Below the pieces are notes generated by a model. The model saw only the letters and a list, made by a program, of their open reading frames with translations. It did not search any database and was not told the origin of the DNA. A stretch of 64,000 bases of DNA from Morchella semilibera (lineage: Eukaryota > Ascomycota > Pezizomycetes > Pezizales > Morchellaceae): the NCBI GenBank assembly GCA_009192285.1, contig WBVU01000003.1, forward strand, positions 3,007,973 to 3,071,972, given 5' to 3'. The position numbers were made by a program, and so were the translations under genes. Shown here piece after piece: positions 8,801-62,700 of this stretch. Each line of letters starts with the position of its first letter. Positions within the stretch are counted from its first letter, which is position 1.

Positions 8801-9566
8801 TAGAGTATAGCCTCAAACATACCTGTACCCGACTGTCAGCTTCATGTGGTAGCACTCGTTCGTCATGTACACACAAAACACACAGCGCAACACAGACGGA
8901 CGGACGGGTACCTACTGCCTGCAGACCGAGCTGTGGGGACGGAAAGATGTAGCGTTAGAAATTAATGTGAAATTAGTAGATTTATGGATCGGGTTTAGAG
9001 CCTAACCGGGATGAAAGTATACTATTATTAACATTACTAGTGTTAGCGTGCTACTATACTATAAAATAAGGGAAAAAAAAACTGGAAGGCCGATCATTGA
9101 GCTTACCTGCGCATGTCGCAACCTGTAGTGGTAGTGCAATTAAAGCGACAGACTGTTAGCCACACACGCCCACACCGAAGCCCTTCCCCCACAAAACTAC
9201 ATAACTAGTACAAAGCCCCGTTTACCAAGAACGGAGAGGATTGAATGGAATAGACAAACCATATGTTTCCCATCGTATTTCCCCAACATGGCCGCAATCG
9301 GGCTCACGAACCTACACCACGCCCACGCCGTATCAGCATCATATTCCTCCCCACCCATGTACGGGGATAAAAAAAAAACATGTACTAACGTAGCCAAGCT
9401 CCCAAGGAAATAGCCAAACGAGCACTTGAGCACCATGTGCCCCTTCTGGGTCCCGAAAAACTCCACCAAGCTGTCGAGAAACCCCCATAGCGCGCTCCGA
9501 CGGCGCCTCACGCCTCCACCGAGAAGCAGCGTCGTCTCATCCGCTGATGTTGTTGAGTTTGTGGCT
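5848..9566 (-). CDS. ArAE_2 / DUF2421 (BRE4-like) multi-pass membrane protein, N-terminal exon unresolved
   Basis: The family is the fungal aromatic-acid-exporter/FUSC-like group (ArAE_2_N plus the ArAE_2 or DUF2421 domain), with yeast Bre4 as a relative; substrate unknown. Minus-strand exons: 9566-9390, 9311-9260, 9122-9107 (16 nt), 8930-8916 (15 nt), 8822-8756, 8685-8639, 8569-8429, 8362-8193, 8122-6031, 5945-5848. All phases close and yield about 958 aa. The N-terminal half has a membrane bundle (WGFLDSLVEFFG, MVLKCSFGYFLGSLATFVSP, DGKHMVAT, ARSAGSMFEAILYALCAFAY). After a long soluble insert comes a second bundle (NNSGNLRVLGTIVGAILALI, LVSIPCFWIILTWKQATFG, VAVTVGVIWGVFVNVAVWP) and a helical C-terminus ending LEEEMLEI. 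The intron 8192-8123 is GC-AG. No in-frame ATG precedes 9566. An ATG at 9912 followed by a GTATGT donor at 9864 is a candidate first exon, but its phase does not fit the obvious acceptor at 9567. Confidence 0.85.
8123..8192 (-). other. GC-AG intron of the ArAE_2 gene
   Basis: The upstream exon ends SFSDM and the downstream exon begins LTIITRSFLNG; both are in frame, and the intervening 70 nt begin GCAAGC and end CAG. No GT donor is available nearby. A run of 12 C follows the GCAAG donor, and a GCTAAC branch-like site lies 19-24 nt before the acceptor end. Confidence 0.75.
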
Positions 9567-36600: not shown

Positions 36601-39600
36601 CTAGGCAGCCTTGCTGTTAGGCTACATGTAAGTACTTCCTACCTAGCGTGGGCATATGTCATGTACTACCTCCGTCTGAAGGTGAAAAAAAAAAGTGAAA
36701 AACACATCAATCGTGGTAATACATACATACAGAGGCTAAAAACTTGCCCGTACGTATACATTCCACGGCTCAATTCCTCATTCACCGAAGGATACTACAA
36801 ACCACCCCATCATCATCACCACCACCGTATATCCCGCCAACTGGAGCATGAGCTAGCTATGTAGCTAGCTCGACTGTAGAACGATCCATCATCACAATCC
36901 TGAAACCCTCATTAGGCCCCGCGACCTTTCAAAAGAGCTATCTGCACCTATCAAATAGTAGTCCTATGCCATGCACTCTTCCCCCAGATAGCTAATAGCT
37001 AGCTGCATGCGTATAAGCTAGAGCGTCGAATCTGCGTGACTGATCATGACTGAAAAAAAAAAATTAACCTCAGATCGGCCCCCCCTCCCCCTTAACTGCA
37101 AGCTCCATAATAAAATTCAAACGGGCAAATCGGGCCCCTACGGCTAGACCTCTCTAGGAGTTACGTTGTTCCGAATTTTTTAATACCCTCACCTATACCG
37201 CAGCGATCGATCACACGATATCACTCGGCCTCGCCGTACGTATGAGACACAACCTCTTTCATCATCTCAAAAAAGAGGACCGAGTTACACACATGATTAC
37301 AGCCCTCCCCCCCTCCCAAACCGAAAGAGATAGTGTAGAGAGGGGTGGAAAGCGTCCTTGTCATCATAATCACGTGCATGACCTATATAACACGTCAGGT
37401 TCAGGTTAAAAAAAGAGCGCGAGTGTAAAGAGAGGGCTCGGAAGAATATGCCCTTTTTAACCAGCTGGCCAGTGATCCGAGTCAACCAGCCGGTCAATGG
37501 TGTTTCGGATCCAGAGGAGGTAACGGTGGTCTTCCGACTGGTTGGTTGAATTACATGGGGAGGGTAAAATATGTGATGGGGAGATAAAGTGAGAGTGTGT
37601 GACGGAGAGAGAGAGCGAGCGAGTGAGTGAGTGAGTGTGAGTGAGTGGAAAGAGTGAAAAGACTCTAGTAGGGGCGGCATTTCCCAGTTTGGAGAGTGTG
37701 CAGAATAGGCTAACAGATACGTATGTACTTATCTAGGCAAAGTAGAAGAGGAGATGAAGTATGTATGTAGCATATATGTAAGTAGGTAGTGTAGTAGACT
37801 ATGAGTATCGAATGTATGCGCTCGGATTTTTTCTGGGGAAACAACCTTTTTCTCTAGCTTACGTAGCTACATACATACATTACATACACAGCTTCTTGAT
37901 CTTGAGCTTCACACACCATGTACTCTACCCACAAGTGTGTACGGTATGGAATGCTCTCTTTTCCCATTCCCTCACACCCTCACACCCTCACCAGCAGCAC
38001 CCGAGCAGATGGTGGAACTTACGCATGTAATGTGAGGTTAGAGACGAGACCTCGAACGAAGCTAAAGAAGAACTTGCAGTTTATGGTTTGCCTCGCTGCG
38101 ATGCTAGATTTCCTGCGTGCGTTGCATGGAGGTCCCGTAGGGCTGACCTTCCCACCCCCCCCCCCCCACCTCTCCACTTACAACCACCACAACCCAGATG
38201 ATGCAGGTAGCAGCTATCTATGTAAAGTACATGTTGCTGCTGTCATTGGGAAGGCTTGTTATCGAATCACTAAGTTAAGCTCCAAACCAAACCAAACCAA
38301 AACACCCTCCAGATCTCGGGGCGGCTGGGGGGGGGGGTGGTAGTGGTGGTGGTGGTGGTGGTATGTTTGACATATCCGCAATTTGTGCAGTTTTCCTGAC
38401 TACTTCTTTCTTTTTTTTCTATTTCTATTTCTATTTTATTTCTTTTTTTTCTTTTATTCCCTCCTTTCTTTTCTTTTCCGTACCCTATGATACCTTGTAT
38501 CCTGTAGGTTGTGGTTACCTTTTCCCTCAGTTCCCTCTCTCTTTTTTTTTTTTTACCAGGTCAAGTCCGCTGGCTGCTGCACCGTTGTCTCTAGACGAGG
38601 TTCGGGGTCAATCAGCATCAGCAGGGTAGGGGGTGGCTGCGGTGTGGTGTGTGTGTGTGAGAGTAGGTGAGACATGGACAAGGGCGCCATGCAAGCGCTG
38701 CCTGCTTTCTGCGATTGTTTGCATGCCATGCCTGCCTTGCCCTTTCGACAACCGAAGAACAATTGCAGCACAGCAATGCAGCCCTTTGAAGACCGTCTAG
38801 TAGCAGTAGTAGTAGTAGCAGTAGGCAGTAAGTAGTAGGCAGTAGTACTCTGAAGTAGTGAGTCCCAGTGAATTGGGGCCTTGCTTGCTTCATGGGGAAG
38901 GGACCACACATCGTATGCATTTTTTATTTTATTTTTTTTAACCTTTACCTTTTACTTACACTACCAGTGTAGACTAGACTTACGGGTAAGGTTATTCTGC
39001 ATATTGATCACGTCGTGACAGCAGAGGTGGAAGTGCAAACAAGATGCCTGTTACATTTTTTCCCTCCCCCCCCCCCCTAGCTATAGCTTGGGAGGTCACT
39101 CTCTAGAGGTATCATTTCCCGAGCCAGTTGCGGGATTTGCAGGGAAGGTCCCTTACCATGCCTGGCTACTCTGCAGGCTACTTGACTCGACATGGCTATT
39201 GATGGAGGAGACAAAGACCATATCGATTGATCAATCCTAGACTCAACCTCATCATGCGGGCTGGGACGACACAGCAACAACAACGATTTTAGATTTCATC
39301 CGTCCGTCCCCATCCGACACTTTGGGGCGGAGGTAAGGTAGGCAGTAGGTAGGCAGAGTCACTCTAAACTAAGAAATGGTTGCTTCTCGGTAGTTTCACA
39401 ATAACCGTGCGTGAGCAGGTAAAAAAAAAAAAAGAATAAACCTATCAAAAAAAACCATGGGGTGCATAGCATTGGTAAGATTGCCCATCATCATCATATC
39501 AAACATCGCGATCCTCGAAGCCCAGTGCAAAACAAAACAAAGCAAGAAAGTGAGATTCAGTCACGCCGCCCCAATCCCCCCTTGCTTTGCTTATACATAC

Positions 39601-41189
39601 CATCATCGCCATATCAATGACGGTGTTCGTCAGAAATGCTATCCCACCCTTTCTTTTTTTTTTTTTCTCTCGGCCCTCCTCCTCCACATCGTCGGCGTCC
39701 CCCCCTCCGCCCCCTCAGCTAGCTCATAGCTAGCAAGCTTTCTGCTGCATTTGGTGACTACTCCGGCAATTGGCGCGCTTGTTGATACATTGTTTAAGGG
39801 CTCGTATCAAAACCCCCTCCAAGAGCAATGTCGTCTCTAGCTCTCTATCTTACCCGTATATCTTTACCCCATTTGGCCGGTGAAGGCAAAGAAAGAAAAA
39901 AAAAAAGAAAAAACGTAAGGAGGGGCCAGGGGAGAGAGGGACGGCTTATTCATACGGGCTCGCTATCTTGTCCCGAGATGAAGGGTAATAATGATTGACT
40001 AGAGGGTAACTTGAAACGAGGGGAGACAGTTTAACCACCCTTACCAATCTAGCGCGCGCCGCACCGTTGCGCCTCAGCCATATTTAGAATAACCTGGGGT
40101 AAGATAGAGTAGCAGCAGCATCAGCGGCAGCAAGCAAGCAGCAGTGGTGGTGCAGTGGTGCAAAAAACAACAATGCTATGCTTGTCCTGGTCATCATGCC
40201 ATACAGATTATTATGATCTTCCGTGCTTTGCTTTGCTGGAGGGAGGGAGGGACAGGCATTGTTGGATCAGATCATTAATAGTTTATGCCACTTTTTAATA
40301 ATCAGCTGAAAGAAACCATCAATTGAGACGACAACACACCCACCTCCGATGTGAACCGCCGGCCGCCGCGGCGGCTCCCAAATGTTTCATAAAGGAGGGG
40401 GACGCCTTCAAACAAGTTTTTTTTGAGATACGGTACTGTCTGAGATGGAACAACAAGAGCTGTGGATAGGATCTATAATACGCAAATCGCAAGGGATAAT
40501 TGGGGGGAATTGGGGCGGAGAGGGGGGGGGGAGGAGAGTGTGACATGACGGGGGAGTCGACAACAGACACAACATTTTTTTTTTGTTGTATGCTTATCTT
40601 GACAACGGCTGCGGCAACGTCACACTGAAAATTGAAATGCCCTCATATGACCACCGTAACACCTTCTCCCTCCCCCCTCGTAGTAAGCAAGCAGTTTGCC
40701 GGCTGGGCTGAATTGGTTTTGGGTGTTGCCTTGAGGCTAGGCTGGTTCTAACTTCTAATTGTACAACAATAACAGCCGATCTATCTACTCTAGTGGTGTC
40801 CGGTTAGAAGTGGAGTGTATATACTTATATTGCTAGGATCACGATGCCAATGATTTGTATATACCCCCAGATAGAGAGATATTGTAAAGTGAAGGATTGT
40901 GAGAGAATGAATGATCAAAGAGAATATGAAATTGAAGGTTCATGATATCTCCATATGCCCTGGTAAGGACCGTGACGGTTATACTCATCCGACATAAACA
41001 ACAATTGTAGGACTAACTAGTCAATAGACTAGACAATGATTACGAAACCAGAAATGCAGTGTACCTCCCACGTTACGTTTCGGCTGTCCTTCTCCTTCGG
41101 CCCAGATCGGCCGGTCCGCCTCATACTCTACTCTCGGTACTCTACCTACCACAAACGTGACAGTAATAGGAGAGGGAGGGAGGGAAGGG

Positions 41190-41212
41190 AAAAAAAAAAA
41201 AAAAAAAAAAAA
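41190..41212. repeat. A23 homopolymer
   Basis: Twenty-three consecutive A, flanked by GGGA repeats upstream. No element body precedes it that would mark a retroposon tail. Confidence 0.9.
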
Positions 41213-44200
41213 GGGCAATCAAAAAATTTGGTTAGTTACCGATATAATTGTAATTATCACCGGGCATTTATGCGAACCTCTCTCTGGTCTCATTGTGGGG
41301 GCGCTCATCCATCGCAAACCTTCGTGGCGGTGTATGATTGGCCCCGCAGCCGTTGGGTTGGCCCATCCCATCCAAACCAGAACCAGATACCAGACAAAAA
41401 ATAATGTGAAACCTGTTTTTTCACCCCCCCCCCTTCCACACACCTCCGCTCCCTTCTCTTCCCCCCCACTGGCCCGGGACCAGTTGTTATCTTACTCTAT
41501 TCTAATTTGTTTGGGGTAAGGGGAGGACCGGAGAACTCCATAGAGTAGTTTGTAGAGGACCTGGGTAGCCTTTTTGGAAGAGGTAAGAGACGTGTTTAGC
41601 GTATTGAATTAGGAAAGGAATAGGAAGAGGTTATTGGGCTGGGTTGCGAGCGAGAAAAAGAGAGGAAGAGGAAGAGGAAGATGTGTGAAAAGAAGAAAGG
41701 TGGGATCTGATCATCTGCCCTTCGGTACACGCGCAAGTTGGATAGGACACGTTCAATTCGTCGTTATGAAAAAACTACATCTGGAGGGAAATGACACATA
41801 GTGCAGGTTCCCGTGTAGGTACATAGGTTTTGTTACTGTTTAACAGTTTGATGCACCTGAGCTTCTGCAAGGGGAATATATTGATGAAATTATTGATGTA
41901 TGTATCTACAGAGTAAACAGGCCCTAGACTCCTAGACCAAAAAAAAAAAAAGGCACGGCACATTGGCACATTGTGATCATGTTCTTTATGAAAAATAATA
42001 GTAATTGAATTCGGCTTCTCGGTAAAAAGGCCTAGACTTGTACTTCTAGATCCGGCCGATATGGGGAAGATCCAATTTCGCCTCGATGGCGTTGAATGAG
42101 TTCTAGACAACAGCCCCCCCCCGGGGGTTGGGTGTGTGGTTTGGGCGAGACCGTTTAAGAAGTCACCTCATCGATTTTCACTCGCTTTCTACAGCAAGAT
42201 TTCCTGATGGCCACCACTGCGGATTTTCGCGTGGCAAAGACACCCATTGTTCGCTTCACAAACGAGGGTTTCTTGGTGAACCAATGGGCGTTGCGGTGAG
42301 AGCGTTACCGTAATTCATATCCTGTCGGGAGCTCGGCCAAACCCAGATAGATGGACGACTTTACCAGCACCACGAGCGGAACGGAAGCCTGGGGGGGTGG
42401 AGGGTAGGCTTGTTTCAGGATCTTTACCTTTTGCCACTGATTGGCCGATAAACCCTCTCAGATCACCGTATGGCAGTTGATCCTCGTCATTTTTTTGTTG
42501 AGTGGGTGGGCAGGCCATAAAAATCGATGCGCTGGCAGACTTTGTGGTTTTGTCAACGTTCTTCTCTACGAATGCTCCAAATAGGGTAATATAATCATGG
42601 GTTCTAAGCGAGATAGGGAAGTGTGTGCTCTTTTTTTTTTTTTTTTTTACCTCTCTTTCATGGTTTGGTGGCCCCCCCAATTACCAGCTGTACAATTTGG
42701 CTATCTCGATCTGATTTTCCTTGAACCACACAAAACACAAGGATTGGGATTTTCGGTCAGCGGGCGGCGATGGATGGATGCTTCTGTCTGAATATTGGGG
42801 AAGCAAAGAGCCTGGGGAAGTTTTCCATGCCTACCGCTTTTCCTTTTTCCAGCTTTTACTTCCCTTCCCCAGTAGACCACCGCGGGCTCCCCGTCACGAT
42901 CGAGCCGTGCGACTTAGGCAGCTTATCGCCGTTCGTGTTACAGCCGAGAGAGAAAATAATCGTCGAAAGCAGGCAGGACAGGCTCCTCTACTAACGTCAA
43001 CAGACCTCAGTCACTCCTATTCAATACCCCAATCATACATATGTAGTTATCCCGTCGCGAGTATTCTCCCGGTTACTCAATTATCAAATGTATATCCTTT
43101 GTAGTAGTAGTAGTGTAAGTAGATACTCCAGCATAATTTAGTGGTGGTACATACCGTTTGACGACGGCGGCGGTTCCCTCTCCGTACCATTCTTATCAAA
43201 GTTATCGGTTATTGCCTCGGATCCAAGGAATGGCAAAATTGATACGTTTCATACCTGTACATATTCGTTCCTAGTCCTTCCAGGCTATGATATGACGATC
43301 GTGCATTCGAATCTCAGTACGAAAATACCTTCCTACACCCTCCCCCCCCCCCCAAACCGCACAGCAATGCAAGGGTCAGGGCTTTTATTTTCATAAGTAG
43401 CTGCACATATATGACCTGGCCCTTGGAGTTACTTGCACTGGTAACTGGTATCTCTAAAAAAAAAATTTAAATAATTAATTTCTTTGCTACTGTAAAAAGA
43501 TAACAATCCAATGATGATGGTGGTGTTACCCTGGTCCCGTCGAAGGTAGGGTCGCACCCACCGGAACTCCAGTGGCTTCCCGCAACCTTGCAGCTCTCTA
43601 GGTAGCCCAGACGTCGAGATCAGCGTGAATGCATGCATACACATATGCAAGTGGCTTTTACGCACAGCGGGCTTGCGTGCTGCAAACTGCAGCCCCGCTG
43701 CCTGCAGGGACCGTGCATAATACGTGTATCCAGTCGACACCAATAGATTTCGCAGGACACACCTATTTTTTTGGAGCAGCGATTTTTTGGCTAAGTGGGA
43801 AGCGTGAGATCGGGTAGTGTGGGGAGAGAGAGGGAGAGTGGTCGCGGTTGTCAAGTCTTTCCCTCCATGGGTTGATATTGATGTTGTGCAAACGGATTAA
43901 TTGTGCGCAGACGAGTGTTCTTCCGGGCACACCGCCAAGTTACATAGCGATGGTTGTTACACACACTGTTAGTTGTATTATGTAGATACTTACATGTAGT
44001 AGATACGGTATCGAAATGGGATCCAACCTTGCAATATGTACATACATATAGAGTACTAGTACATGGTATCTAAAGTACCCACATACATGTAATTATCGTG
44101 AGAGTAAGAAAAAAAAAAGTATAATTTTAAGGAAAAAGAATTGATTGCAAGGCATCAATTGATGGGTTTTCCTTGTCAAGCTAGCTAGCTCAAGGACTGT

Positions 44201-45148
44201 GGAACACAGCGGGAGGTTGCATGTCTTCTGTCACGCGTTTTTTTTCTTTTTCTTTTTCTTTTTTTCTTTTTTCTTATGAGCCGCGCCGAAAGAAAAAAAG
44301 GACCATTTTAGATCAGAAACGGCTCAACGCGGGGAAGTGGAAGGGGCGCAAAAAACAGATTATGGAAAAGATAGAAAAAATTGAAACGAGCCGGAAAAAA
44401 GATTTCAGGAGTCCAGGCACATTTGGTATCGGGAACGGATAGAATACCCCCAGCTGAGAGCGTTACCCTAATCGCCAATAAGGATCTACTCATGTTACAC
44501 GGCTGGGCGTGTGTATCTATGCCATAGATGTGAATATGGTGTGTGTGTGTGATGTTCCTCGCAACAACGTCCGCTGCAACCCCAAGAGAGAATCAACTCT
44601 GTTAGTATAATTCTCGCAGCTCGCCGCCGTTGTCCGCGGGGGCGGCAGAGAAATGGGAATAGATCAATAATAATAAAAATGTGGTGGAATCTATCTGCAG
44701 TGTTTAAATAACCCGCCTTCAAAAACGGAAAGGTATTGGTAGTCTTCCTTTGAAATACAGCTGCGAGTTTATACTGGCTCCGTTTACTCGAAGGTTACCG
44801 GTTACAATCATGATACATCACTCGCCATCGGTCACTGTCACTGTCACGTGTGGCTTGCACATACTTACACCCATACATCACCACCACCACAATACACCAT
44901 GGCCATACACACTTACACATAGCTCCTACATGTAACATAACTCACATCCTGCAGTGAATCTGTGCTTAGTGGCGGGAACTAAAAGGAAAATCGGCCACCG
45001 GAGATTTTCGGCTTACAGAGTAAACAAGGTTGCAGTACATGTTGCAGAGTGCTTTGACGAGAGACAATAAAAGAAGGTACGGAGAAGGGCTTACATGCTT
45101 CTCTTGCAGTCGTCCTCGGGAACGGAATAAAGGGTGGAAATAGAAGAA

Positions 45149-45174
45149 CACACACACACACACACACACACACA
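45149..45174. repeat. (CA)n microsatellite
   Basis: Thirteen CA/AC dinucleotides in the StuA desert. Confidence 0.9.
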
Positions 45175-47860
45175 TACTGTACAAGGCCGCCGACAGAGCA
45201 GAGTGAACGGGAAAATAACCAAGGAGGATGTGATAATCCGTTCCGTACCTAGTCAGGCAAGGCACATCGGCAGGATGAGTGCAACGTGACGGAACGGAAG
45301 CAAGGCCTTTGTTCAAGTTTCCGATTGACCAAATGGAGGAGGAGTATGTATGTAGATGTGGGTTGAGGATCCGGGAGAGCTACGCGAGTATGCGTTTGGC
45401 ATGAAATAGTAGTACATCCGCGTGCGTTTGTTGGAGTCCCGCGTGGATCGTGTTTCGTCTCTCTTCTTTGATTGTTACATCTCAAGAACAAGTACACGAG
45501 AAAATGTGACTTTCTTAGTGGACGGTATCTCTAGCTTGTCGTGGGCTTTTTTTTTTTTTTTCCCCTCACCCCCCCACCTCTTCTTCTTCAGCTCGAGCTC
45601 CTAGCTCGAATTTTCTGAAGGGAATAGCAATCAAAGAACTAGAGAAATCTCAACTAGGTGGAAGAACAAGAAAAGAGGGATATTCAAAGAGTATATAGAG
45701 GGTTAAATATGCCTACAGCCTCTATGCGTAGATGTAATACGAAAGCCACGAGTTGTATAGCAAGCAGTAGAGTGTTCTTCTGTCTGTCATCCTCTTGTTC
45801 CTCCTACATATCACTCACTAGCCACTACATACTATAGGGTGTTGAGTTCTTTCTTGACGACAGAAACTCTATCCCTAGCTAGCTGTCTCTCTCTCCCATT
45901 TGCGGTTGTGTTGTGCCTATCACATACGCAACACAAGCTCCACCGGCAGTAGCGAGAGAAGCACAGTGGCCCCCCCCTCACCCCCCCCCAACATCATTCT
46001 TACCCAAGCTCCTTGCTTTTTGCCGGCGCGTCCCCGATTTACTTTTTCCGTAAGTGAGTGTGTGTGATCCCTTCTTATTCCATCATACAGATTCATACTC
46101 AGGCTGGATTGAGAGCATGATGTTGCAGACTCAGAGATGGGAGACTTCGATACTGGTACACCCATCGCGCTAGATGTCAATTCCCATACTCTAGAACAGC
46201 TTTATCAGAGCTATGAATGGCTTCTGCTTCTACCAAAAAGAAATACCTTTTACTGATGATTTACATGCCAGCCAGCCCTTCATCTTCATCTTCACCATCA
46301 CCATCACCATCAAGTTAGGTAGCATCAATAGGAAGCAACGTTACCGGAAGGGCAGCATAGTCCGGAACGCTTACCAACCGTGACCGCCCTCAATATCTAT
46401 CTTAATCTTGCATCATCTGCCGTTGGCTCTGTCGTTATCCGCCCACCAAGTCCTATCCGGTATACCCAATCATTGACGCCTCCATTATTATCCGATCACT
46501 CCAGTCGTAAGTCTCGTGTCTCACGCTGAAGCAAGCAATTCGCTTGTAGGACAGATCGATTTTCTGGTCACGTCAATTCACATCGCAGCAGCCAGGGGTG
46601 CGCCAAAGACCCACACAGACTGCGAATCGGCAAGAACCACGCGATAGACCTCTGAACTAAAATCAGACTTATCCCTTCCGTCTGTCGCGTGTCGTCGTGT
46701 CTTTGATTTGGTGAAGTACCAATACAGGAAGTAGAGCTACAGCAGAGACCAACCATTTCATATTTCTAGACTTCGATTCTTATTTTATTTTTCCCGGCGC
46801 ATTTGTTCCTTACCGGCCATCTCCTGCTGCTGCTGCTCCTGCTGCTGCTCATTCTAGCTTATTCTAGATCTAATACTAGTAAGAGTAAGTAATAGTTACG
46901 CCCGCTTGACCGAGCAATTTCTGAGATTTTCAAAACTTCTTTTTGATTTTTATAACAGTCTATGTTGGCAATGGAACCTTCATTTTTCCCCACGTTCATA
47001 AGTTTTTCCTTGGGACGTGGCTCCTTCCTCTCCCCACGCTCTCACTTTTATGATCCTTTCCCAAAAAAAAAAAAAAACCCACCGCCAATGAGCGGAGTAA
47101 CATTGCTTCCATTTTTATACATAGCTCCTCCTTGCCAACGCACACTCCACCGGTCTAAGGCTCTAACCAAATTCGTCACGCTACCAGCCTTTCTACCCTA
47201 ACCCTGCATCAAATCCAAGATCCGTCAGGCTAACCAGATGCGTTGTAGCTGTCGCGCCTGCAGTCCCTTTCTGCGCCAATTCTCACTCGAACCCCTGCAC
47301 CCTTTTTGTTGCGGGTGCCGAGCCAACCAATAGCAAGAGACCCCAGCAGCCTCCCAGTCAACAACCCTTTCCTCCGCCTGGTTCGTTCAGACTGGAGGGT
47401 GGCCCTCGCTCTCCGCAGGACCACTCACGACTCACGAGGAGGAGGAGGGGTATCTGGGACTGGCGCTGCGCTGTGCTGGCCTGGGAAAGGAACCACCGAC
47501 ATTCTCGCTGAGAATTGATTGCCCTTATTTTTTTTCCCTTCTTTTCTTTTTCCTTCTTCCGAAGGGGGTTCATTATTATTATTACGATTATCATTTGTGT
47601 GTTAATTGCTTGCCCCTTCCTTGGCCAAGGAGAGACGGGAAAGAAAGAAAGGAGGTGAAAAGCAAGAGATCGAGGTAAGAAGAGTGAAATAACGAGAGAA
47701 AGTTGTTACGAAAAGGCTACATACTTAGAGTGAGAGAGAGAGTGATAGATCTCTATCCTAAAAAAAAAACGAGATATAGAGAGCGATTGAGAAAGCAACT
47801 AGGAATTCCATCAAACTGGTAAGTACCCACTTTAGTTCCCTGGATTGACCAATGGGAATG

Positions 47861-49616
47861 CACTGAGTGAGCAAGTTGGATTAACTGTCCCGTTGACGGC
47901 GAAAGCTCTCTTCTCTCACTCGATTGCGCCGTCCCAACCCCCCTCCCTCACACCCATATCCGTTCCCTTTCTCTTCCCCCGGCAAGTCCAAGTCGAAAGT
48001 CCCTCGCCAGAGTCTGAACGGTTTGACACCTCTCGCCGTAACCCCTGTTCGACCCGCCCAGCCTCCAATCCAGCCTCTCTATACCAGACTAGACGGCGGA
48101 GGCAGAAAAATAGAAACCATAGTAGAAAAAAAGAAGACAGAAAAACCAGTGTACGTACATACATACCTGCCTCCTCCTTTTCCCTCTTCGCACCACCTCC
48201 ATCCCATCAACTGTGCTGTGTGAGGGCAAGCAAGCAAGCAAAAAAAAAAAAAAAGACCTCCACTTGGACGGACCATCATTGCTTGCTGCTTGCGCTACTT
48301 CCCTGCAAGTCGCCTCGACCCGCATCGTAAATTCTACATTTGCTCTTCCTCTTCTCGACTCTCTTCATTCACTCTCTCTCTTCGAGCTTTCCCCAGCCTC
48401 TCGAAGAACACTTCCCCCCATCACTCTCTACTCCTCCACACACCCCCTACCCTACCCTACACCCTCTCCCACCCCCCCCCTCCCCTCGCTCAACCTCTCC
48501 TGCTCGGTTCGTCGCGCAATTCCTTCCCTTCCCTTATTCCTCTTCCCTTCTCCTCCTCGCGCCTACCATACACGCCCTGCGTTTCCTTTGCATCATTAAC
48601 GACCGGCCGATCTTGCAGCAAGGCGCAACTGGAGCTTCACGACATTTCATTTTAAGCCTCTCCCCCGATCCAAGACATTCTAGTCACAGTTGAAAAAAAC
48701 TGCTGCTGGAGTAAAAAGGATAAGGCTCAGTGCATCTCTTACGACCAACGAGAAATACGAACGAACGAAATTTACGAGGAGGCGCTATTCTGCAATTGCA
48801 ACGACTTTCAATAATCAAAACAAAAAATCAAACACGTAAAGATAATCACGCCCCCCCCCAAAAATAGTCATCCAGCATTTACGAATTTGAAACGAAGCAA
48901 ACGCCAAAAGTTTTACTCAAAAGTTGTTATCTTTTTCCCCACGAATATTCTTCCATCCAAAGCATTGCATTCCAACCCATCAGCGAGACAAAACTCTTCC
49001 CCTGGCATTCCCCAAGCCTAGAACTGTAGTATACGGCACTGTATAATACAGGCTATTCCAGCTTTCTTCATTCCCGGACACAGGCATTGTCTTGAACTGC
49101 ATTTGTGTTCCTCAGTATCAAAAAAGTTCTTCTCTCTCTCTTTGTCTTTCTGACGTTTTTCCTTGGCTGGTATTTTTTTGCCTCGTCCATTGATTCGTTT
49201 CTGCATCCATCTGCACTTTACCGAGCAACTTGTACTGCATCTCTGTGGTTGGTTGAGCATTCCCACCTGCATCCAAGCAACAGTCTCTCATCGTCGCGGC
49301 TACAGGACGAATCCCCATTACCTTTTGCTGCATCCACTGGGAGGATTAGCCGCTATACCAAATACTGGTGGAAGCCACACCGTTATTTTAACGGTTAATA
49401 AAGACATCGAGTCTGTTGGCTGAAATAAGCACAGAGCCCTCGTCTTTTGCTGTTTTTATATTCCTCGAAATTCCCTAAATCCGCCATCAAAAGGCAATCA
49501 CCGGTCCAACCAACAAGCTGGAGCTACCTTCTCTCTCCTCGGTCCAGACTAGACCTCTCGACGTCTTTGCTGCTTGGAACGGCGGCGGGTTTAACCATTC
49601 TCACTACAAGTCGAGC
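47861..49616 (+). promoter_or_regulatory. probable 1.7-kb ATG-free mRNA leader of StuA
   Basis: Reading every position from 47861 to the StuA start codon at 49617, there is no ATG on the plus strand; roughly 20-27 would be expected. The last upstream ATGs are at 47852 and 47858 (a four-codon frame ending TGA). The stretch is pyrimidine-rich, especially 47900-48600, as in many strong fungal leaders. Such loss of ATG over this length is best explained by selection on a scanned 5' UTR. In Aspergillus nidulans stuA also has a long leader, but that one carries upstream ORFs. Any leader introns could not be placed. Confidence 0.6.
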
Positions 49617-52307
49617 ATGTCCAACGATAAGCCACCATCAGCTCTATCTATTCCGCAATCTGTAACAAACTTGTCGAATAACTCCCCTCGCTCCTTGGGT
49701 ACATCTATTCTTAACGGTCCCAATTCCGCCAACGGTTCTTCATTAAGCAAGTTGAACACTCCTCCCGGAAATAACGGGCCACCTCAGCAACACGCTCTCC
49801 CGAACCCCAATATCCCTTCCCCACAACAACAACATCCCCAGTCGTACGCTCCTCACGGCTCTCAGTTCTCGTACGGAAACGACAACTCGGGATACATGCA
49901 GTCACAAAGTCAGCCACCATATATCGGCGTTGACTTCCACCAGCATCACCTTTCTCAGGGGCAACCTCCTACACCACAGACCGCTACATCCGGAAGCAAC
50001 ATGAACTTCCCTCCACAGCCTCCTGTACTTCAGCCGAACTACAGCCAACCCCATCATAATGGCTTCCCACCATTCCCATTCTCTGGTCCTAATGGAGTCT
50101 CATCTCCTGCTGGGCAGCCCGGTGTTTCGGGGCCGATGGTGCATCCTACTCAGCAGCTGTTGCCATTGCCACAAAACACCCAGCTAACACCCAGCCCATC
50201 ACCACTGACTGCGGTATCTGCGGGGGGCCCTCAGACACCTGCATCCGCTACTGCAGCTGGTGGGTTTGGTAACCAAACATTTGATACTACTGGTCAACAC
50301 GCACCTCCTGGAATGAAACCCAGGGTCACTGCGACACTATGGGAGGATGAGGGCAGTTTATGCTTCCAAGTAGAGGCAAAGGGTGTATGCGTGGCCAGGC
50401 GAGAAGGTTTGTACTTCGCGGCAACATCACTTTATCTAAAAGTTTTCCCCCGCTAACGATTATTCAAAACGACAAAAGATAATCATATGATAAATGGTAC
50501 AAAGTTATTAAATGTGGCTGGAATGACCCGAGGAAGACGTGATGGAATCCTTAAAAGCGAGAAGGTCCGCCATGTAGTAAAGATTGGGCCAATGCACCTC
50601 AAGGGAGTATGGTAAGTAGTTGTTGCATCTAATCATAGATTTATCAGATCTACGATTAGACCGGTGAGGTTCGTTTAGGCTAATTTTCCATGTCTGCAGG
50701 ATTCCATTTGACCGTGCATTGGACTTTGCGAACAAGGAGAAAATCACGGAATTGTTGTATCCCCTCTTTGTGCACAACATTGGTGCTCTTCTCTACCACC
50801 CAGCAAATACCCACAGAACCCATGCGGTGGTGGCTGCTGCTGAGCGCCGCAAGCAGGATAACTTGCAGAACCAGATGCAACAACAGAGAAGGGGCCCATC
50901 AGAACTCATCTCCTCACCACACCCCCCTCCATTGCATCATCATCATGGTATTCAGGGCAGTATGCAGCAGCCTCACCACCTCGCTCCCCATAACCTGGCT
51001 CAAGGGCCTCATCAGATCAATAGCCGGCCCGGCATCGAGAGAAGCCTTTCATTTCCTACACCCCCCTCAAGTGCATCAAGTGTAATGGGTGGTGTTAACC
51101 CTGATGGGTCATTTTGGAATGGGGGGAACATGGTTCAAGGAGGTCCCGGTAGTCAGCCATTGGCTATTGACACTGTTATGAACAGTCGTTCCATGCCAAC
51201 CACACCGGCGACAACGCCTCCCGGTGCTGCTCTACAACAATTACAGTCATACCCACCACCACAATCTACTCTGTATAACTCAAATGGTTCAGGGATGCCT
51301 CAGAACAACCCTATTGCACAGCAGAATATGCAGAGGTTTGGACAGCCATTGCCTCAGCCACCACAGTACATGAACCAGAACAGGGAAGCCAACAACATGG
51401 GACCGCCGCCTACAGCCCGTGGCCCTCCGGCATCGCTTTCTAGACCATCATCGAGGCAGAATAACGCAGAGGAGGTACACCCCAAGGAAGAGGGTGGTGA
51501 GGAACAAATGGGCTAGAACAGGGTGAACATGAGGACCAAAACCAGGGCGAGGAGGAGGCAGAACATGAAGCTGACCATGAGGAAGAATACACACACGATG
51601 CCAACTATCCTAGCGGACATCGTCCCGGGAACTACTACCCTCCGCTCAACGCGGATCATGCTCCTCACCTCTCCCCAGAGATCAACGGATCACCCAACCA
51701 CGGTGGGCAAGCACCATCAACTCCAGTTCGATCATATGGTACTGCCAGCGGTGGTGTTCCCCGAACAATCGATGGCGGTTCTGGTGCCACCCCACGTACC
51801 GCCCCCACAGCGTCTCAGCAACAATGGGTTCACAACCCAACCGGGTACTCAACCCCGCCTAGGACTGCCACTAACGGTGGACGCCAGGCACCGCAGAGGA
51901 ATGTGTATCAGTTGGTGAGTGGTGATGCCGCTGCCGACCAGCACAACGGATCAAACGGGGCCGGTGCTCCTGATAGTGGTTACCCGGGTCAAGGTCTAGG
52001 TGTTTCTATCCCTGCACAAACGCCTCAACAGCCGTATAGTGGGATGAATGGATCATCAACCCCCTCATCTAACAAGCGTATGCGAATGGAGGACGAGGAT
52101 GAAAATGGTTCCCGTCCTTCGAGTCGGGGACATGACGAAAGGCCTGGTGCGGATTCCGAGGGGGGGTTGAAGAGGCGTAAGACGATTCGTGAAGGCTCTA
52201 CACCTGTCATTGGCGGCGCAGGCTCTACATTCGACAGGAATCCTGATGGACGTCTTAACCGCACACGGTCGGCGGTGCAGCCGGCCCGGGCAGTGGGTAG
52301 GCGGTGA
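49617..52307 (+). CDS. stuA: StuA-type APSES transcription factor (Asm1/StuA), one frame break
   Basis: A developmental regulator of conidiation and fruiting in filamentous ascomycetes, acting in the nucleus. Exons 49617-50406, 50479-50611 and 50700-52307; introns are 72 and 88 nt and both interrupt the APSES domain. With one missing base restored at about 51511-51512 the CDS is 2532 nt, 843 aa. The N-terminal 235 residues are Pro/Gln/Ser/Asn-rich. The APSES DNA-binding domain runs over about residues 236-340: [59 protein letters not shown] and [20 protein letters not shown]. The C-terminal half is low-complexity with a bipartite-type nuclear signal near the end ([21 protein letters not shown]). 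Near-identity of the APSES core to StuA separates it from Swi6/Mbp1 types, and no ankyrin repeats are present. The upstream ATG-free leader and desert suggest complex regulation. Confidence 0.95.
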
Positions 52308-55223
52308 TTTCTCTATAGACTATTTTTTTTTGTTTTAGCTTGCCCCTCAAAATTCAGCAAGGATATATCAAATTTGGCATGCAGGAGTTGAGAGTCTATT
52401 CATTCGTGTTTGATTTTAGTTTTTTGATTTTTCCGGATTGATGGGATGGGTTGAATAATCCGGTGGGTCGGCTTTTGGTTTGGGGGTTCTTTCTGTTTTC
52501 CTTTGCAAAAAAAGATATGAAGTGACGCAGCGATCCTTTTTTGTTCTTACAATAACCACACATGTCTGCGACGTATTTTCTTTTGGGTCATTATTTTTGT
52601 GAATCATTCTTAAGCTATATTCTCTAGGGGTCTTAAGTCTGCTTCCATCTGTTCATTTTTTACTTTACTTTTTGTGGATGCTTCTGTCTTATACCTGTGT
52701 TGCTAGTCTGGTCTGGTTTTCCACGTTACATCCATGTTTTCTTTTTTTTCTTCCTTCGCCTTGAGTGTTCTCACGATTGTGCTTTTATCGTAACGGCCGT
52801 CACGAATTTTCTCCCTTTCTGGTTTGTGAATGGATGGGGTAAAACTTTTATAGTGGTGGAAAATCTTTTATCAAACTTTACCATACCTTTCCTCGTGTTT
52901 CTCATAGTTATTCTTTTTTTTTTTTCTTCATTCGGGATTTGATTTATTTGTGAGTAACTTTAGGCAGGGGAGTGTTGGAATCCAAAAAAATTTGGCGGTC
53001 TCTACAACGATATCCTACAAGGCAATTTTCTGCTGTCTATTGCTTTTTGTACCTATTATTATTTACTCGGATTGATAGCTATCTGGCCTTTGATCACTTC
53101 GCTATCGGCAAAACAGCCATTGAAGCCTGCGAGGCGCGCGGAGTTGCAAAACAAACAATCCATCCATGTACGTGTCTTTCACTCAGATATTGTGAAAATG
53201 GGATAAGAATTTGGTCACTTCCGTATTTTTAATCTTTGATCTTTTGTTTCTATACAGGAGGACTACCCAATGTGATGCAATCTTCCTTGATTGATCTTTC
53301 CTCCCCCTTACATCAGCTTTCAACTCTCTCTCTTCGTCTGCGTCCTGCATCTAGTAAACGGACCGTCCCTACGTACTGTAGGCGGCGGGCCCACCACCAC
53401 CAGCACCAGTTTTTCCTCCAGAAAGAGGGAGGAAAACACCAAAGCAAAGTGCGGGGAAGGTGAGGCAGGGGCTCATTGGCTGCCGCCATACGTGTGTTGG
53501 GTGATTACTCGGTTGGATTGGAACTTATGCGTGCATGAGTAGCGGTGCGGTGTCTCCGAGGTTCGTGCGTGCATACAAATGGGGGGGGGGGGGGTGGATA
53601 TTGGAGGATCGATCTCTCTCCCTGACTTGCTGTCCCCCCCCCTCCCTTCAGATCAATTGGAGGGACTGGACACCGCCACGCCGAGCGGAGGCACTGGCCA
53701 CATCATGTACTCTATATAGTGTGCGGCACGGGGGGGAGGAGGAGGAGGAGGAGGAGGAGGAGGAGGAGGAGGAGGAGGAGTATGTAGACAAAAATCATAG
53801 ATGGTACCTATCCTCCCCATCTTCGTCCACATATGCAAGCAATGTTGCTTATTTTTCAGTGCCTTTTCTCTCCCTCCAACCTTTTTTCGTTTGACTACCG
53901 CGCATAATGTAAGATCCGAGGGGCCGGGGGAAAGGTAGCAAGATGGCCGTGATAGTAAAGGTTATGGTGATCTCGTATGTGTCCCGTCCACCCCCCATGG
54001 TACCTAGGTCAATTGCAATTGCAGCCCCAGACTTTCAAACTCTCTAATCTGCTCACCGGAAATCCAATGGTGCATAAGATACCTGTCACGTCTATCACTG
54101 TCCATCGCGTTATGTACAACCAATGCCAATGTGGTGCTGCCAAAGAAATGGGCCATGTTTTATATCATGCACTCCTTTCTTTTTTAATTATTTTTGCCCT
54201 TCTCCTCGTGGGGCTTGCCTTGTCTTATTATTACAAAAATATCCACTAGAAAAAGAGAAGACTACTGGAAGTGGTATGTACAAACCATATTGAAGAAAAG
54301 AAAGAAAGAAAAGAAAAAACCCCCGTGGGGAGAAGAAGAAGAAAAAAAAAAAAAGGGAATGTGGTGTTCCAGGTCCCAGGTTATCACACATTTCGTTGGC
54401 GAATTTAACCCATTGAGGTCAGATTTACTTTGTGCGTTTATCAAGCCGTTGATGCAGCAGGAGCGACCTTAGTACAGATACTGGAAATTTCAGCGCAAAT
54501 ACTTGTTAAAAAACGGGAGGAATTATCTCGATACAATTCTGATCGATAGTAGCATTATTCCCGATACCATATTTCGCCTTGAAACCATCATAATACGCCC
54601 AAGCCCAACTCAGCCACCACTGGGGAGAGAAAAAGACGCGAATAGAAAAACCCTCGGAGCATCATGAAGTAGAAAAAAAAAATCCCCTGACGCATACCCC
54701 CATCCTATTCACATGAAGAAAGAAAGAGAAAATAAGGAATATTCCGTAACCCACACCCCACCGACATGTATGAACTGAACACTCCGTACTCGCAGTAATA
54801 ACAAAGACACAATTATCCACATCTATCCTAGGTTGCCCCACCCGTGTAAGTAGTTATGTGCAGTCCAGTGTCCACAACACCTATCCCTTTCGCCTTGCCA
54901 TCACGTGGCAGATTGGGCTCTAAATGAGAAAGAAATACGTAAAGAAAGGGAAGAAAAGAAATATGAGGAGTTAAAAAAGCAAAGTAAGTAGTAAAAATAT
55001 TCACACCAGCTTCCCAATGGTTAAGGAAACTAAGACGGAAAAAAAAGAAGAAAAAAACATACAGGCCAACCACACACCCTTCGCCAACATCCTCAGGTAA
55101 TATGTTCAAGAAACACAACGGGGATAATAAAAACAGACAAACGCCATAAATATGATACCAAAGATAGCCACCCAGTAACAAAGGAACCCTTCCTCAAACC
55201 AACCCCATAAAACATCACTTAAC
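52308..55223. other. convergent 3' spacer, StuA / MIT-domain gene
   Basis: About 2.9 kb. The first 650 nt are T-rich and likely StuA 3' UTR; 54500-55220 is A-rich and likely the 3' UTR of the minus-strand gene. Between them are a G14 run (53581-53594) and a GGA repeat (53735-53780). No gene seen. Confidence 0.6.
53735..53780. repeat. GGA trinucleotide repeat
   Basis: About fifteen GGA units. They create a poly-Glu or poly-Pro open frame on either strand with no other coding support. Confidence 0.9.
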
Positions 55224-58200
55224 CTAAGGAGCAGAGACCCATTCAGTCCCGCGCTTGACGAACTTGTCTAACAGCAATGTGACATCGGCGAGGACGAAGC
55301 GGCAGATATAGAAACCGAAAAATTCCGCGGCGTGACGTTGACTTAATTCCAGACCGACCTTAACGGTCATGGGTATCTTCTTTTCAGAATTGTTGTCGTC
55401 ATCTAGAACATTTAATCGGTCTATCATAGCGGTCAGAAAAACATGCACGTATATTACAGGGATCACGTTGGTCAAGCCCGGGAATGAACTATCATATTAA
55501 AAAGTAACATACCCAATATCTGAGCAGCATCGAAAAGCTTCGCCAGAGCGCCGATATAAGCTGCATGAGGTCCCCCAAATGTTACACCCTCTAAGTTCCT
55601 CACAGGCTGAGCTGCAATATCATTCCCAGCCTTCGGTAGCCCTTTCGCAGCATAATTAAAGTCCCCCGCCAAATTGCTGGAACTCCCAAAAGAACTGAGA
55701 GCTGTGTTGGAGTTCTTTGTCCTCAGCTTCCTCAACGAAAATAGCTTTTCCCGCCACTGATACCAGTGTTCTTGGTTATCATGTCTGAGTTCCCATTCTC
55801 TGGAATGGACCCGTCAGTGCCATACATAGCACGTGCACCAGATGACCCAACATCGTTGCCGAGTTTTTTGGAGAGAATAGCCTGGACACGGTCAAGGACA
55901 CCTTCAAGAGATTGCATCTCTTCATAGATGGCGTTAACATTATCCTGATTTACAGTTGCAAGTTTCCCCAATGCAGCGCTGACAAGGTCGCAGCAAGAGA
56001 TCTTGTCGTCTATAGCCTTGATCTTGACTCCCTTGATGAACCAGACCTCACGTGGCACAAAAACCCTCGCAGAAATGTATCCGCCTCTCGGATGCGCTAC
56101 AGTTTGGTAAAGGCATCTCATCAACCAATACGGTTTGCTTAAAGCCTCCCCCGGACATGGTTCAAGTGGGACGGGCTGGCCCAGTGCTAAGTGATCCGCG
56201 CTGCTCGGGGTAGCAGGCGAGTAAAGTTTGCCTTCAAACAGATGCATTCCCCCAGCCATTCCAGCAGTGGGTGGAAGTCCCATCGGCGTTCCTGGTACAA
56301 TACTTGGAGTAGCTGGGGTAGCACTCCTGGGAAACGCTTTCCGAAGATTTGAGGTACTACTGGACGAGAATAACCCACCCCCAGAGTTTACAGGCGAGGA
56401 TTCCTGATCTGGAGACGCTAAGGTGCGACTCTTCAAGCTCGCCGATGATTGGATTTGCCTAAGTGCACCTGGGAGGCCAGGGATCCTTGCTGTAAACCTG
56501 GATGGAGAAGCTGAACCTTCGTCGTCAGAAACAGTTTTACTTATAAGTAACAGTGGAAGTGATTCCAGAGATAATCTTACCAGGAGCCTCTAAATTCGAG
56601 GGAGTTGGAGAGTGAAGGTTTCTTCCAGTATAGTTTCCGGCTGTTGCTGGTGTCGGTATTGGCCCATCCCTTAGTTCTGAAGAGGTACTCGGCCGTGAAG
56701 GAATAGCTGCACCTGCGGTTTTGGGAGGGATATTTAAAGGTGGAGTGAGCGGGGGCGGTAATGACGAGTAATCCGTAGAAAGCTCTGAATCCACATTTGG
56801 TACAGACGGGGAAGGCCCACGGACTATAGTTGTGGGGATAGCACCATAAATTGATGAACCGTTTCCGGACGGCGATGTCTCGATTTTCAGAGGTTCTGAT
56901 AATGCCGAGAGGCGGCGGGACCTAACACTAGAAGACTTTGAAACGGATAGACTAGGAATTGAAGCAATGTTAGGAATGGGAAGGTTGGGAACTGGTTCCG
57001 TTATTTCCCTCTTAGATGAAAAGGAGAGGGGAGCTGGAGCCAGTGGAAGATGTTCTACTGGTATAGATGTAGGATATCTAGCCTTTGGCGATGATGGGCT
57101 TTGATGTTGGAGCATAGATTGCAATGGTGGTGTAGAGGGTGCCTCATCAACTGTAGATAGTGGAGTAGGAGCGTTAAGCATCTGTGCAGATCCAATAGAA
57201 CTAGCCCATGTTGTTCCTGAATATCCACTGCTACCTGATTCTCGCACAGGAAGCGTTGAATCAGAATATGAAGCCCCCGATCCTCTGGGGAACGCTGTCC
57301 TTGAGTCCAAGTTGAATTCAAAATCATCCAGAGTGTACCCCCTCGTCACTTCCTCCAACATGCGCTCATCCTCCGAGTCATCGTCATCATCATCCCCATC
57401 GTCGAAGAAGTCTAACTCTGAGTGAGGCCGTCGCTCAACCAATCCCAACCGCTCTCTTTCCAACTTCCGTTCCTTCTCCCTAGCTATCTCCAATTCCATT
57501 TCCCGATCAACTTCTACATTTAGCCGCGGGCTCTTCATCATTAGCATTCCCTCATCCCGATCGTAGGTTGAATCTCGATCGTAGGCATAATCCACTTCGT
57601 AACCATCATAGGCAGCCTCTACGGCAGCGTCTAGCTGCGTATCAAAATCATCTTCAAACTCCCGCATCTGCCGCTCCCGCTCCCGCTCTAACCGCATCTC
57701 CCTCTCACTCTGCCGTCGCGGCTTCCTTCTCGTCCAACCTGGTGATGACTCTCCGGATACTGATCCTCCGGATTCATCGATTGTGTTCAACCAACTTGTC
57801 GAAACCTCACTTCCTTGCCGTGAATGCGTAGTATTTGACAAATTGCTCATATTTGACTGCCGGTGCGAAGAACGTCTCGACGAAATTGAGGAAGCATCAG
57901 AACCCGATCTCCGAATTCCATAATCCCGCTCCTTCTGCGGTGAAAATCTTGGTGAGAGTGCAGCAGCGCCAAATGTAAACGACTCCCGGTTGTTATGCTC
58001 TATATATGATCTTGTCATCACATCGCTATCACCCTCCATAAAATCTTCTCTCCTGGGTGATATTGGTGCGTATATCACTGGTGATAATTGCGGGGGAGGT
58101 ATAAATTCGGCAGAGTGTCTATTGGGCATGGATATTTGTTGCGGCGATACCGTCTCGTGAGGCATTGGTGGCATCAAGTTTTCTGGACCTAGATATAATG

Positions 58201-59743: not shown

Positions 59744-62700
59744 CCCACCCAGCGGATTGTAAGTTGCTTTTTCTTAATTTTAGAGAAGGGAGGGGTAGGA
59801 AACCTCCGCTTTAGGGTGGTTGGAAGATATTTGGGGGAGGTTAGGCTGGCTGGTTGGCTGGGATGCAGTCTAACTCAACTTCGCACTTGTTTCCAGCAAA
59901 TGAGGTGCTACTTTGAATTTGATAGGGAATTGTTGATTCAGAATATGGGAGAAACAAAAAAAAATGTGGATAATCTAGGCAGGACCAGGCACGAGGTGTC
60001 CAGTTGGGGAGAGGGTTGCCCCTGAAGGTAGGTAAGGTTAGCAACGAGGGATTGATTCGGCGGGTACGTACGGGGGAGGGATACTCACTTTGGGTTTTTT
60101 TTTCTCCCTTCCCTTTGAGTGTAGGATTTTCCTGTTTTCCTTTTGTATGTCTGATGGATGTCTCTCTCTTATCCTTTTTTCTTTTTCTTCCACTGCTAAT
60201 AGAGCCCTTGAACTGTAAACCAGCCAGCCAGCGGGCTGTTGGAAGAGGGAGAAGGTCTCCCTCTTTCCTGCTATTACTCGGTACGTCCTAGTACTGATTG
60301 ATTCAATCAACAATGACCTCTTTCAACTATCTTTGGGGTTTACAACCTCTTCAGCAGGAGAGATACAATGAAACGCTGAAGGGCGAAGGAATTCAGGATG
60401 CTCTATTAGTTAGCTTATGCTAGTCCAGCAGTGATGAGTGACCAATCAGTATGTGAGTGAACAAAGCAGGTTTTCTTTTCTGTCGAGTGAAGGATCAACA
60501 CACGATATCGATTGGAGAAGGAAATCGAGGGTTTACGACACGGTAATGCGTATGTAATGGGTAAGGTATGGGTCAAGGTTTAAGCATAGGAGAAATTGAC
60601 TTGTTAAGAGGAGGGGGAAAAAGTCCTACCCTGGTCACTCAAACTTGTGTGACGCTCAAGTAAATACATGTACCCAGAGAATGCGTGAGAGAAGAGAGGA
60701 AGGATACTCTCACTAGGTGGCTGCGGCTAAGAAAGAAACAATGGATAAGGTTTAGAAAAAAATTTCTAGTAATCTTGCTCCTGATATGGAAAAATATAGG
60801 TTATAGGACAAGCACATGTAGACATACATGTAACTACATACATATACATGTAGGGATAGAGAATCAACGGAAGACGCGGGGCCCTCTGCATTTCCTCTTA
60901 CGATGTTTTCTTAATTGTTCTCCTCCTGCTTGTCGTTTGCGAATAATACATATGATATCTGACGGAATACACTTACGCTTACATGTACTTAGCGCTTATG
61001 AAGATGCAGGTACGTGCGTGTACTTGTTGTTTGCACATACATGGTACATAGAATGTACGTACTAAGGAGTAAGTTCATGTACTCTAAAGTACTTACAGCT
61101 GTTTCCATGCCCAGTCCCCTTCTCCCTGGCACTCTCACTGGCTTGTTACCCCTGAACCGCTCTCCAACGACGATGATCTGAGCCACCGTTCTTTGACGGG
61201 AGATCAGGCATCTTGTTTATGATCCTAGACCTCCCGCTGCATGTTGTACTTTTTTTCTGCCGCCAGAACTGGCACCCTTCGGCAGCTTCTAGCGCTCCAA
61301 TGACAATATAGAGCCATGGCGACATGGTGCGCATTCACTTACCTATATGTGCATAAGTATAGATAATGTTTTTGATGAACCAACCTTGGAGGAACGCGAA
61401 TAGCAACGAGGACGGAATAAGAACATTGAAGCATCTGTTGTCGCGCAAGCAGCTACCCGCGAATAATAAACCCACTACCAGCTACTCTAAGCAAGGGTCA
61501 GTTTCGGTATTAACCCCTAGATAAGTATCCTAGTTCGATATCTAAAGCGCCATGCTACAGCAAGTACCAATATCATGTATATCTTATTTATTGTCCCCGC
61601 ATTATCTAAAAAAAATACCGAGCAATGATGCCGAGAACAAATTAAAGTATAAAATCATTCATCAAGTCAACGAACCATCACGAACAAGGTCCAGGGCATA
61701 TGCTGACAAGAAAATAAAAGTGGCCGATTCGGAAAGGCTAGCTGCTTAGGGTTGTAGTGGGTAGTTGGTCTGTTCATTATTCATGTCTCGCCGAAATAGA
61801 CGAGCCCACGGAAGGTTCGGCACATACCCCATTTCTTCAAGAAACCGAGGTAAAGTATATGTACATACCCAAAAAATGTGGTTAATGTCGGATAGGTCTT
61901 TTGGCTTGTGGTAAACACGAGGGGGTTGATTATATTCCTGGTTGGCCTAGGAGGTTGAATCTTGACGTACTTAGGTGAGTACTTCTACATGTGAACCAAC
62001 GCCTTCCAACCCACTGGGTTCAAACAATCCGCAAAATGACGTGCGTGGAATCTACCTACTTCAGCCTCAAGATTTAAATCAACATTCCCAAGACCGATAA
62101 AATTCTTTGGGCAAACAGAAGACACCACAGGGGAAAAAGAAAAAAGGGGTAAAATACATGTACGTGTATGCAATAAGTATCCCTCCGACAAGCGACGTCA
62201 CAGGTTTAGCGCCACAATTGTTTTCACACGATGCTTTCAGGTTCTTGAGATTTTGATTCACAGGCATCACTACTTTTACACATATACTCTACCTACCCGT
62301 GGTTGGGAGACTCTTAGCACCTGGTTTAGATACATGTATGTTTAAGTCAGCTATGTTGCACCGCATATCATTTTAGGGAGGGTAGGTGACCCACCTACAT
62401 GTATGTAGGTACACCTGCGCCGAGCCAATGCATGCAGGTGCATTAGCACTAAAATTTATGCATTTGTCGTCAAGGAATTATTCATGCCAAGAACTCGTGG
62501 ATGATTGCGCATCATGAGGTATCATTCGGTCATGTGGATTCACGTGGGCTACACAACACCCCAAACCATCTACAAAAATAGTAGATTATGAAGATTTGAA
62601 GACATGATTGCATGATCGATTCCACGCGCGCAATTATAGAGGCCAAGTATGAAGGTGGGAGGGCGCCAGCCTACCCGCCGGCGCAAGAATGCTAGAGAAA

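Follow-up and report, generated by a model that had tools for sequence, protein, structure and literature searches.

An ATG-depleted zone before the APSES regulator gene stuA of Morchella semilibera suggests a very long, probably spliced 5' leader

The window analyzed here, a 64,000-nt stretch of Morchella semilibera contig WBVU01000003.1, encodes on its forward strand a StuA/Efg1-type APSES protein, as indicated by a PF04383-bearing homologue at 92% identity. Spliced reading and comparison with homologues resolve its coding region into three exons: exon 1 (49617–50406), which opens with the conserved start codon preceded by an A at -3; exon 2 (50479–50611), which holds the APSES region and yielded a stretch matched at 96% identity; and exon 3 (50700–51516), which runs to an in-frame stop. 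The best homologue, whose match spans the whole query, is a protein of Morchella sextelata, and the next ones come from Tuber, Rhizina, Geopyxis and other Pezizomycetes. The individual exon pieces, when given alone to Pfam, returned no match. The APSES stretch occurs at one place in the genome (23 contigs totaling 56.76 Mb were searched). Towards the C-terminus, between 51470 and 51530, the stuA frame shifts when compared with its Morchella sextelata and Tuber counterparts, with the stop falling at 51516 and the conserved C-terminus continuing in another frame to about 52310; the cause is either a mistake in the assembly or a genuine truncation. Upstream of the gene, neither strand of the roughly 14 kb from 33687 to 47844 carries an ORF that reaches 150 codons, and this part could be a large regulatory region.

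The N-terminus of the protein fixes the point from which the upstream DNA has to be read. All nine homologues compared (by eye and unaligned; nine of at least 120) begin with M[SP][STN][DE][KR], i.e., at the equivalent methionine, and hence the ATG at 49617 is very probably the true start codon. The same agreement bears on whether the DNA before it might be coding, as an extended N-terminus or a further exon upstream, translated from a non-ATG start. A 161-codon frame opening with TTG at 47845–48330 would be a candidate for such a segment, but the stuA frame itself runs into stops less than 300 nt upstream, and the near-cognate codons in 47861–49616 are not depleted (CTG, TTG and ACG exceed expectation; GTG is close to it). 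We thus consider upstream coding of this type highly unlikely.

Directly upstream of stuA, the last forward-strand ATGs lie at 47852 and 47858, and the next is the start codon itself at 49617, leaving 47861–49616 (1,756 nt) entirely free of ATG. The first-pass annotation of this DNA had reported this gap, and its end at the StuA start codon, with exact coordinates. The composition of the stretch (A 25, C 32, G 16 and T 26%) would by itself predict 18.8 ATGs, while 20,000 dinucleotide-preserving shuffles contain 14.0 on average (sd 3.1) and never fewer than 3. The expectation of about 20 offered by that annotation was therefore somewhat high, but the comparison with shuffled sequence that it had proposed bears out the depletion. 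When all 64 trinucleotides are ranked in this stretch, ATG has the lowest z-score (-3.7). CAT, in contrast, occurs 41 times against 26.7 expected, a count reached by 3 of the 20,000 shuffles. This excess alone proves little, since 34000–42899 is also CAT-rich (170 versus 147.8 expected, reached by 4 of 500 shuffles); however, the confinement of the depletion to one word on one strand points to RNA rather than DNA as the level at which it arose.

Measured from start to start, the gap before stuA (1,759 nt) is the longest between ATGs on either strand of the whole window, the runners-up being 963 nt on the reverse and 697 nt on the forward strand. Among the 6,556 ATG gaps in 20 sampled 10-kb stretches of the same genome not one is as long as 1,200 nt, the maximum being 927 nt; these stretches were taken at fixed coordinates, are apparently gene-poor and amount to 18 distinct ones, with two pairs being 100% identical over more than 9.9 kb. 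Gaps of 600–960 nt, found elsewhere in both the window and the sample, might suggest that the one before stuA is merely a random extreme. Against this stand the absence of any ATG-free sequence among the 20,000 shuffles, a Poisson probability of about 8e-7 for no ATGs with 14 expected, and the arrangement of the three longest forward-strand gaps, which adjoin one another and end at a real start codon. A chance origin is accordingly very improbable.

These three consecutive gaps (697, 614 and 1,759 nt) delineate a wider ATG-depleted zone on the forward strand, 46268–49616 (3,349 nt), with 7 ATGs where 31.3 are expected; none of 4,000 dinucleotide shuffles is as low, the minimum being 17. Its left edge was defined after the ATGs had been seen, from the one at 46265. 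CAT is again frequent in the zone (69 versus 53.2 expected). Both flanks are normal: 42900–46267 has 58 ATGs versus 55.4 expected and, beyond the gene, 52312–55600 has 52 versus 52.5. Thus, the 1.76 kb given in the first-pass annotation as the extent of the leader falls short of the depleted zone, which spans 3.35 kb, reaches about 1.6 kb further upstream and is interrupted by a second ATG cluster. In a scan for ATG-depleted segments across the window and 25 stretches (23 of them distinct), 47239–49895, which extends slightly into the coding region, ranks first with a score of 14.2, and the upstream segment 46266–46961 ranks fifth. The second rank (14.1) is held by the reverse-strand leader and coding start of a neighboring gene for an MIT-domain protein. 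Two TAG-poor segments outscore the stuA segment in the same scan (16.9 and 15.9 against 14.2), and are presumably open coding frames.

For comparison, the ATG-free distance before 29 coding-like ORFs has a median of 101 nt and a maximum of 599 nt, though this is a weak control in that many members of the set may be internal exons; the set was defined by a coding-score cut-off of 6, which left out stuA (5.5) and the MIT-domain gene (3.4). Velvet-family loci, the start codons of which were not fixable, were left out as comparison leaders. A search of the genome for copies of the leader returned only the leader itself, and scans of prokaryotic and viral contigs yielded no relative. Rfam gave two weak matches over 44–53 kb, neither at the gathering score, and a scan for bacterial-type promoters, a model type not applicable to this fungal DNA, stayed at chance level. 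Folding values per 150 nt are -29.8, -23.7 and -24.3 for the predicted leader exon 1, intron B and exon 3 (defined below), respectively, against a window mean of -35.7 (sd 12.9). Weak folding was dropped as a feature of the leader, given that the predicted exon 2 (-36.8) is not weakly folded.

The above contrasts also bear on a simpler account, namely that transcription starts near 49617, the leader is short, and the lack of ATG follows from base composition or from promoter sites bound by proteins. The stretch is indeed G-poor (16%) and C-rich, as such an account would have it. Nevertheless, composition is already built into the dinucleotide shuffles, not one of which fell below three ATGs; DNA bound by proteins is not expected to produce an effect restricted to ATG and to one strand; and the upstream flank lacks the depletion. 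A short leader is hence improbable, and the depletion would instead place the transcript start more than 1 kb upstream of stuA.

The distribution of the few ATGs within the zone suggests an internal structure. They fall into two clusters, five at 46962–47238 and two at 47852 and 47858, and each cluster lies behind a perfect GTAAGT donor, at 46885 and 47819, respectively. This word occurs 134 times in 289.6 kb with both strands counted, or about once per 4.3 kb of strand. The zone can accordingly be parsed into three predicted exons and two predicted introns. The stretch 46268–46884 is the first predicted leader exon, or marks how far upstream that exon could reach (0 ATGs versus 7.4 expected; one of 4,000 shuffles had none); as this border was taken from the ATG at 46265, transcription may really begin at a more internal position. 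Predicted intron A (46885–47248) combines the donor with a CTAAC branch at 47230 and a TTGTAG acceptor, and contains 5 ATGs versus 2.9 expected. Predicted exon 2 (47249–47818) has none against 6.1, with none of 4,000 shuffles as low. Predicted intron B (47819–48618), with a TTAAC branch and a TTGCAG acceptor, contains the ATGs at 47852 and 47858 (2 versus 4.4 expected; 576 of 4,000 shuffles are as low) and is not significantly depleted. Predicted exon 3 (48619–49616), which leads up to the start codon, has none against 10.6, and not one of the 4,000 shuffles went below 2. A third forward-strand GTAAGT, at 46507 inside the predicted exon 1, is matched to no predicted intron.

Taken together, the predicted exons contain no ATGs where 24.0 are expected, whereas the predicted introns contain 7 against 7.3, and no ATG is created at the predicted junctions. 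When the ATGs are circularly shifted across the zone, all seven fall within the predicted introns in 44 of 3,349 shifts. An alternative acceptor for intron A at 47187 would leave six of the seven within introns (matched by 133 of 3,349 shifts) and would keep one AUG, at 47238, in the leader as a 31-codon uORF. On a scale with hand-set weights, the acceptors score 11.1 (47187) and 10.9 (47248) for intron A and 9.6 (48618) for intron B; the two coding introns of stuA, at 8.7 and 10.7, fall in a similar range. The best acceptor score of region A was, however, reached in 37 of 300 shuffles of 46885–47818 and 29 of 300 of 46885–47260, and that of region B in 276 of 300 (47819–49616) and 208 of 300 (47819–48630). 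With acceptors scoring no better than in shuffled sequence, the case for the predicted introns comes from the pair of donors and the placement of the ATGs, and their splicing is weakly supported. The TTAAC branch of the predicted intron B differs from the CTAAC and CTAAT used by the coding introns. A shorter intron B, ending at 47905 or 48061, is also possible, and 47861–48618, a part of the ATG-free gap as reported, may itself be intronic. A leader intron had already been suggested by the first-pass annotation from the two ATGs at the upstream border of the gap; a GTAAGT donor 33 nt before the ATG at 47852 favors it, but the acceptors are at chance level. Two other attempts at a splice model were abandoned: a motif count in the genome sample, which gave little contrast of CTRAY against other words, and a small search for introns in coding frames, which produced few believable introns among 31.

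We propose that the DNA before stuA is transcribed as a 5' leader which is very long and probably spliced, and that selection for scanning has purged this leader of AUGs; we give this reading a probability of roughly 0.65. Briefly, removal of the predicted introns at 46885–47248 and 47819–48618 would take out all seven ATGs and leave at most 2,185 nt of mature leader, counted from 46268, without an AUG, or 2,898 nt if the second intron stops at 47905. A ribosome scanning from the cap would then meet StuA's own AUG first. Selection against AUG in the scanned RNA, with none acting in the introns that are removed, would account for the exon–intron contrast, the strand specificity and the edges of the depletion. 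The length of the leader probably serves RNA-level control of stuA as a developmental regulator, comparable to that of Candida albicans EFG1. The earlier reading of the 1,756-nt gap as a scanned leader is upheld to the extent that it agrees with a depletion which is confined to ATG and to one strand and stops at a conserved start codon. More speculatively, splicing might act as a gate: full splicing would yield the AUG-free leader of about 2.2 kb and allow StuA to be made, while retention of an intron or use of the acceptor at 47187 would leave blocking uORFs (such as those of 79, 31 or 4 codons), thereby providing a developmental on/off switch. We regard such a switch as rather doubtful.

A variant of the long-leader explanation, rather than its opposite, posits several promoters with starts scattered over about 46.3–48.6 kb, all giving AUG-free leaders, with intron B or its retention varying between transcripts, much as the alpha and beta transcripts of Aspergillus nidulans stuA differ. 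Pyrimidine-rich blocks are a mark of fungal core promoters, and direct reading of the sequence reveals blocks resembling them near 47520–47560 and 48340–48550. Scattered starts would also account for the ATG-free 47861–48618 even with intron B ending at 48618. A second start is, however, not needed for this, as the predicted intron B is not significantly depleted. We hold this variant as a tentative possibility.

AUG-poor leaders may be common in this fungus, with that of stuA being the longest seen, because two other loci also show ATG-poor upstream stretches. The first is the convergent MIT-domain neighbor on the reverse strand, which has its start at 59743, an ATG-free stretch at 59744–60584 and the previous ATG at 60587 (844 nt start to start); a 67-nt leader intron with a CTAAC branch and a TTCAG acceptor is predicted at 60088–60022. 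The second lies in one of the sampled stretches (L023, positions 7783–9307, reverse strand), where a 234-codon ORF that matches nothing in Pfam is preceded by 1,525 nt with 1 ATG against 10.9 expected. The sampling also touched on the state of the assembly. The contig pairs C12/C13 (sampled as L015/L016) and C9/C10 (L012/L013) are each of near-equal length, and the 10-kb stretches taken from them match at 100% identity over 9,963 and 9,952 nt, respectively; in addition, a GATA gene lies at an almost equal coordinate in C12 and C13. Part of the assembly thus seems to be present twice.

Against this backdrop, the morel gene can be placed alongside leaders already described in other fungi. In Aspergillus nidulans, the stuA gene has a long leader with short uORFs that act in translation, and gives rise to two transcript classes, alpha and beta. 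The morel gene is its ortholog, but its predicted leader exons hold no ATG with the acceptor at 47248 and one with that at 47187, both acceptors scoring at chance level. A long purged leader in the morel beside a uORF-bearing ortholog and EFG1 raises the question of whether length has been kept for RNA-level control while AUGs were selected out. Should the splicing prove true, the difference in ATG content between the exons and introns of a leader would be an inexpensive way of recognizing such leaders from sequence, with no need for RNA data. Among the matches listed in a search of the literature on StuA and APSES leaders, Morchella went unmentioned.

More generally, the long leaders of Cryptococcus and Neurospora are described as AUG-rich, with the short, AUG-poor leaders typified by Saccharomyces cerevisiae being the exception (PMC7049704). 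This makes one ask how a regulator whose leader runs to 1–2 kb comes to be translated at all. The predicted leader of morel stuA departs from both of these patterns, as given in the available portion of that source, in being at once long and AUG-free. In Candida albicans, long leaders are enriched among regulators of filamentation (PMC2926782). One of the regulators of this yeast, the APSES protein EFG1, has its main start sites experimentally mapped to about -1100 to -1170, and its 1.1-kb leader is required for efficient translation (PMC6034079). The available text of the same study names one AUG uORF in this leader, which is of four codons, found in one strain, absent in SC5314 and dispensable (PMC6034079); from this we infer that the EFG1 leader is also nearly AUG-free. 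Like EFG1, the morel gene encodes an APSES developmental regulator and is depleted of AUG before its start codon (0 versus 14.0 in the gap and 7 versus 31.3 in the zone). In comparison with EFG1, as far as the accessible part of that paper describes it, the morel zone would measure at most about double the length, carries its ATGs in two predicted introns and is known from sequence alone. Hence, a long AUG-poor leader of an APSES regulator is of a kind already known from EFG1, and the one predicted for morel stuA is a variant of it.
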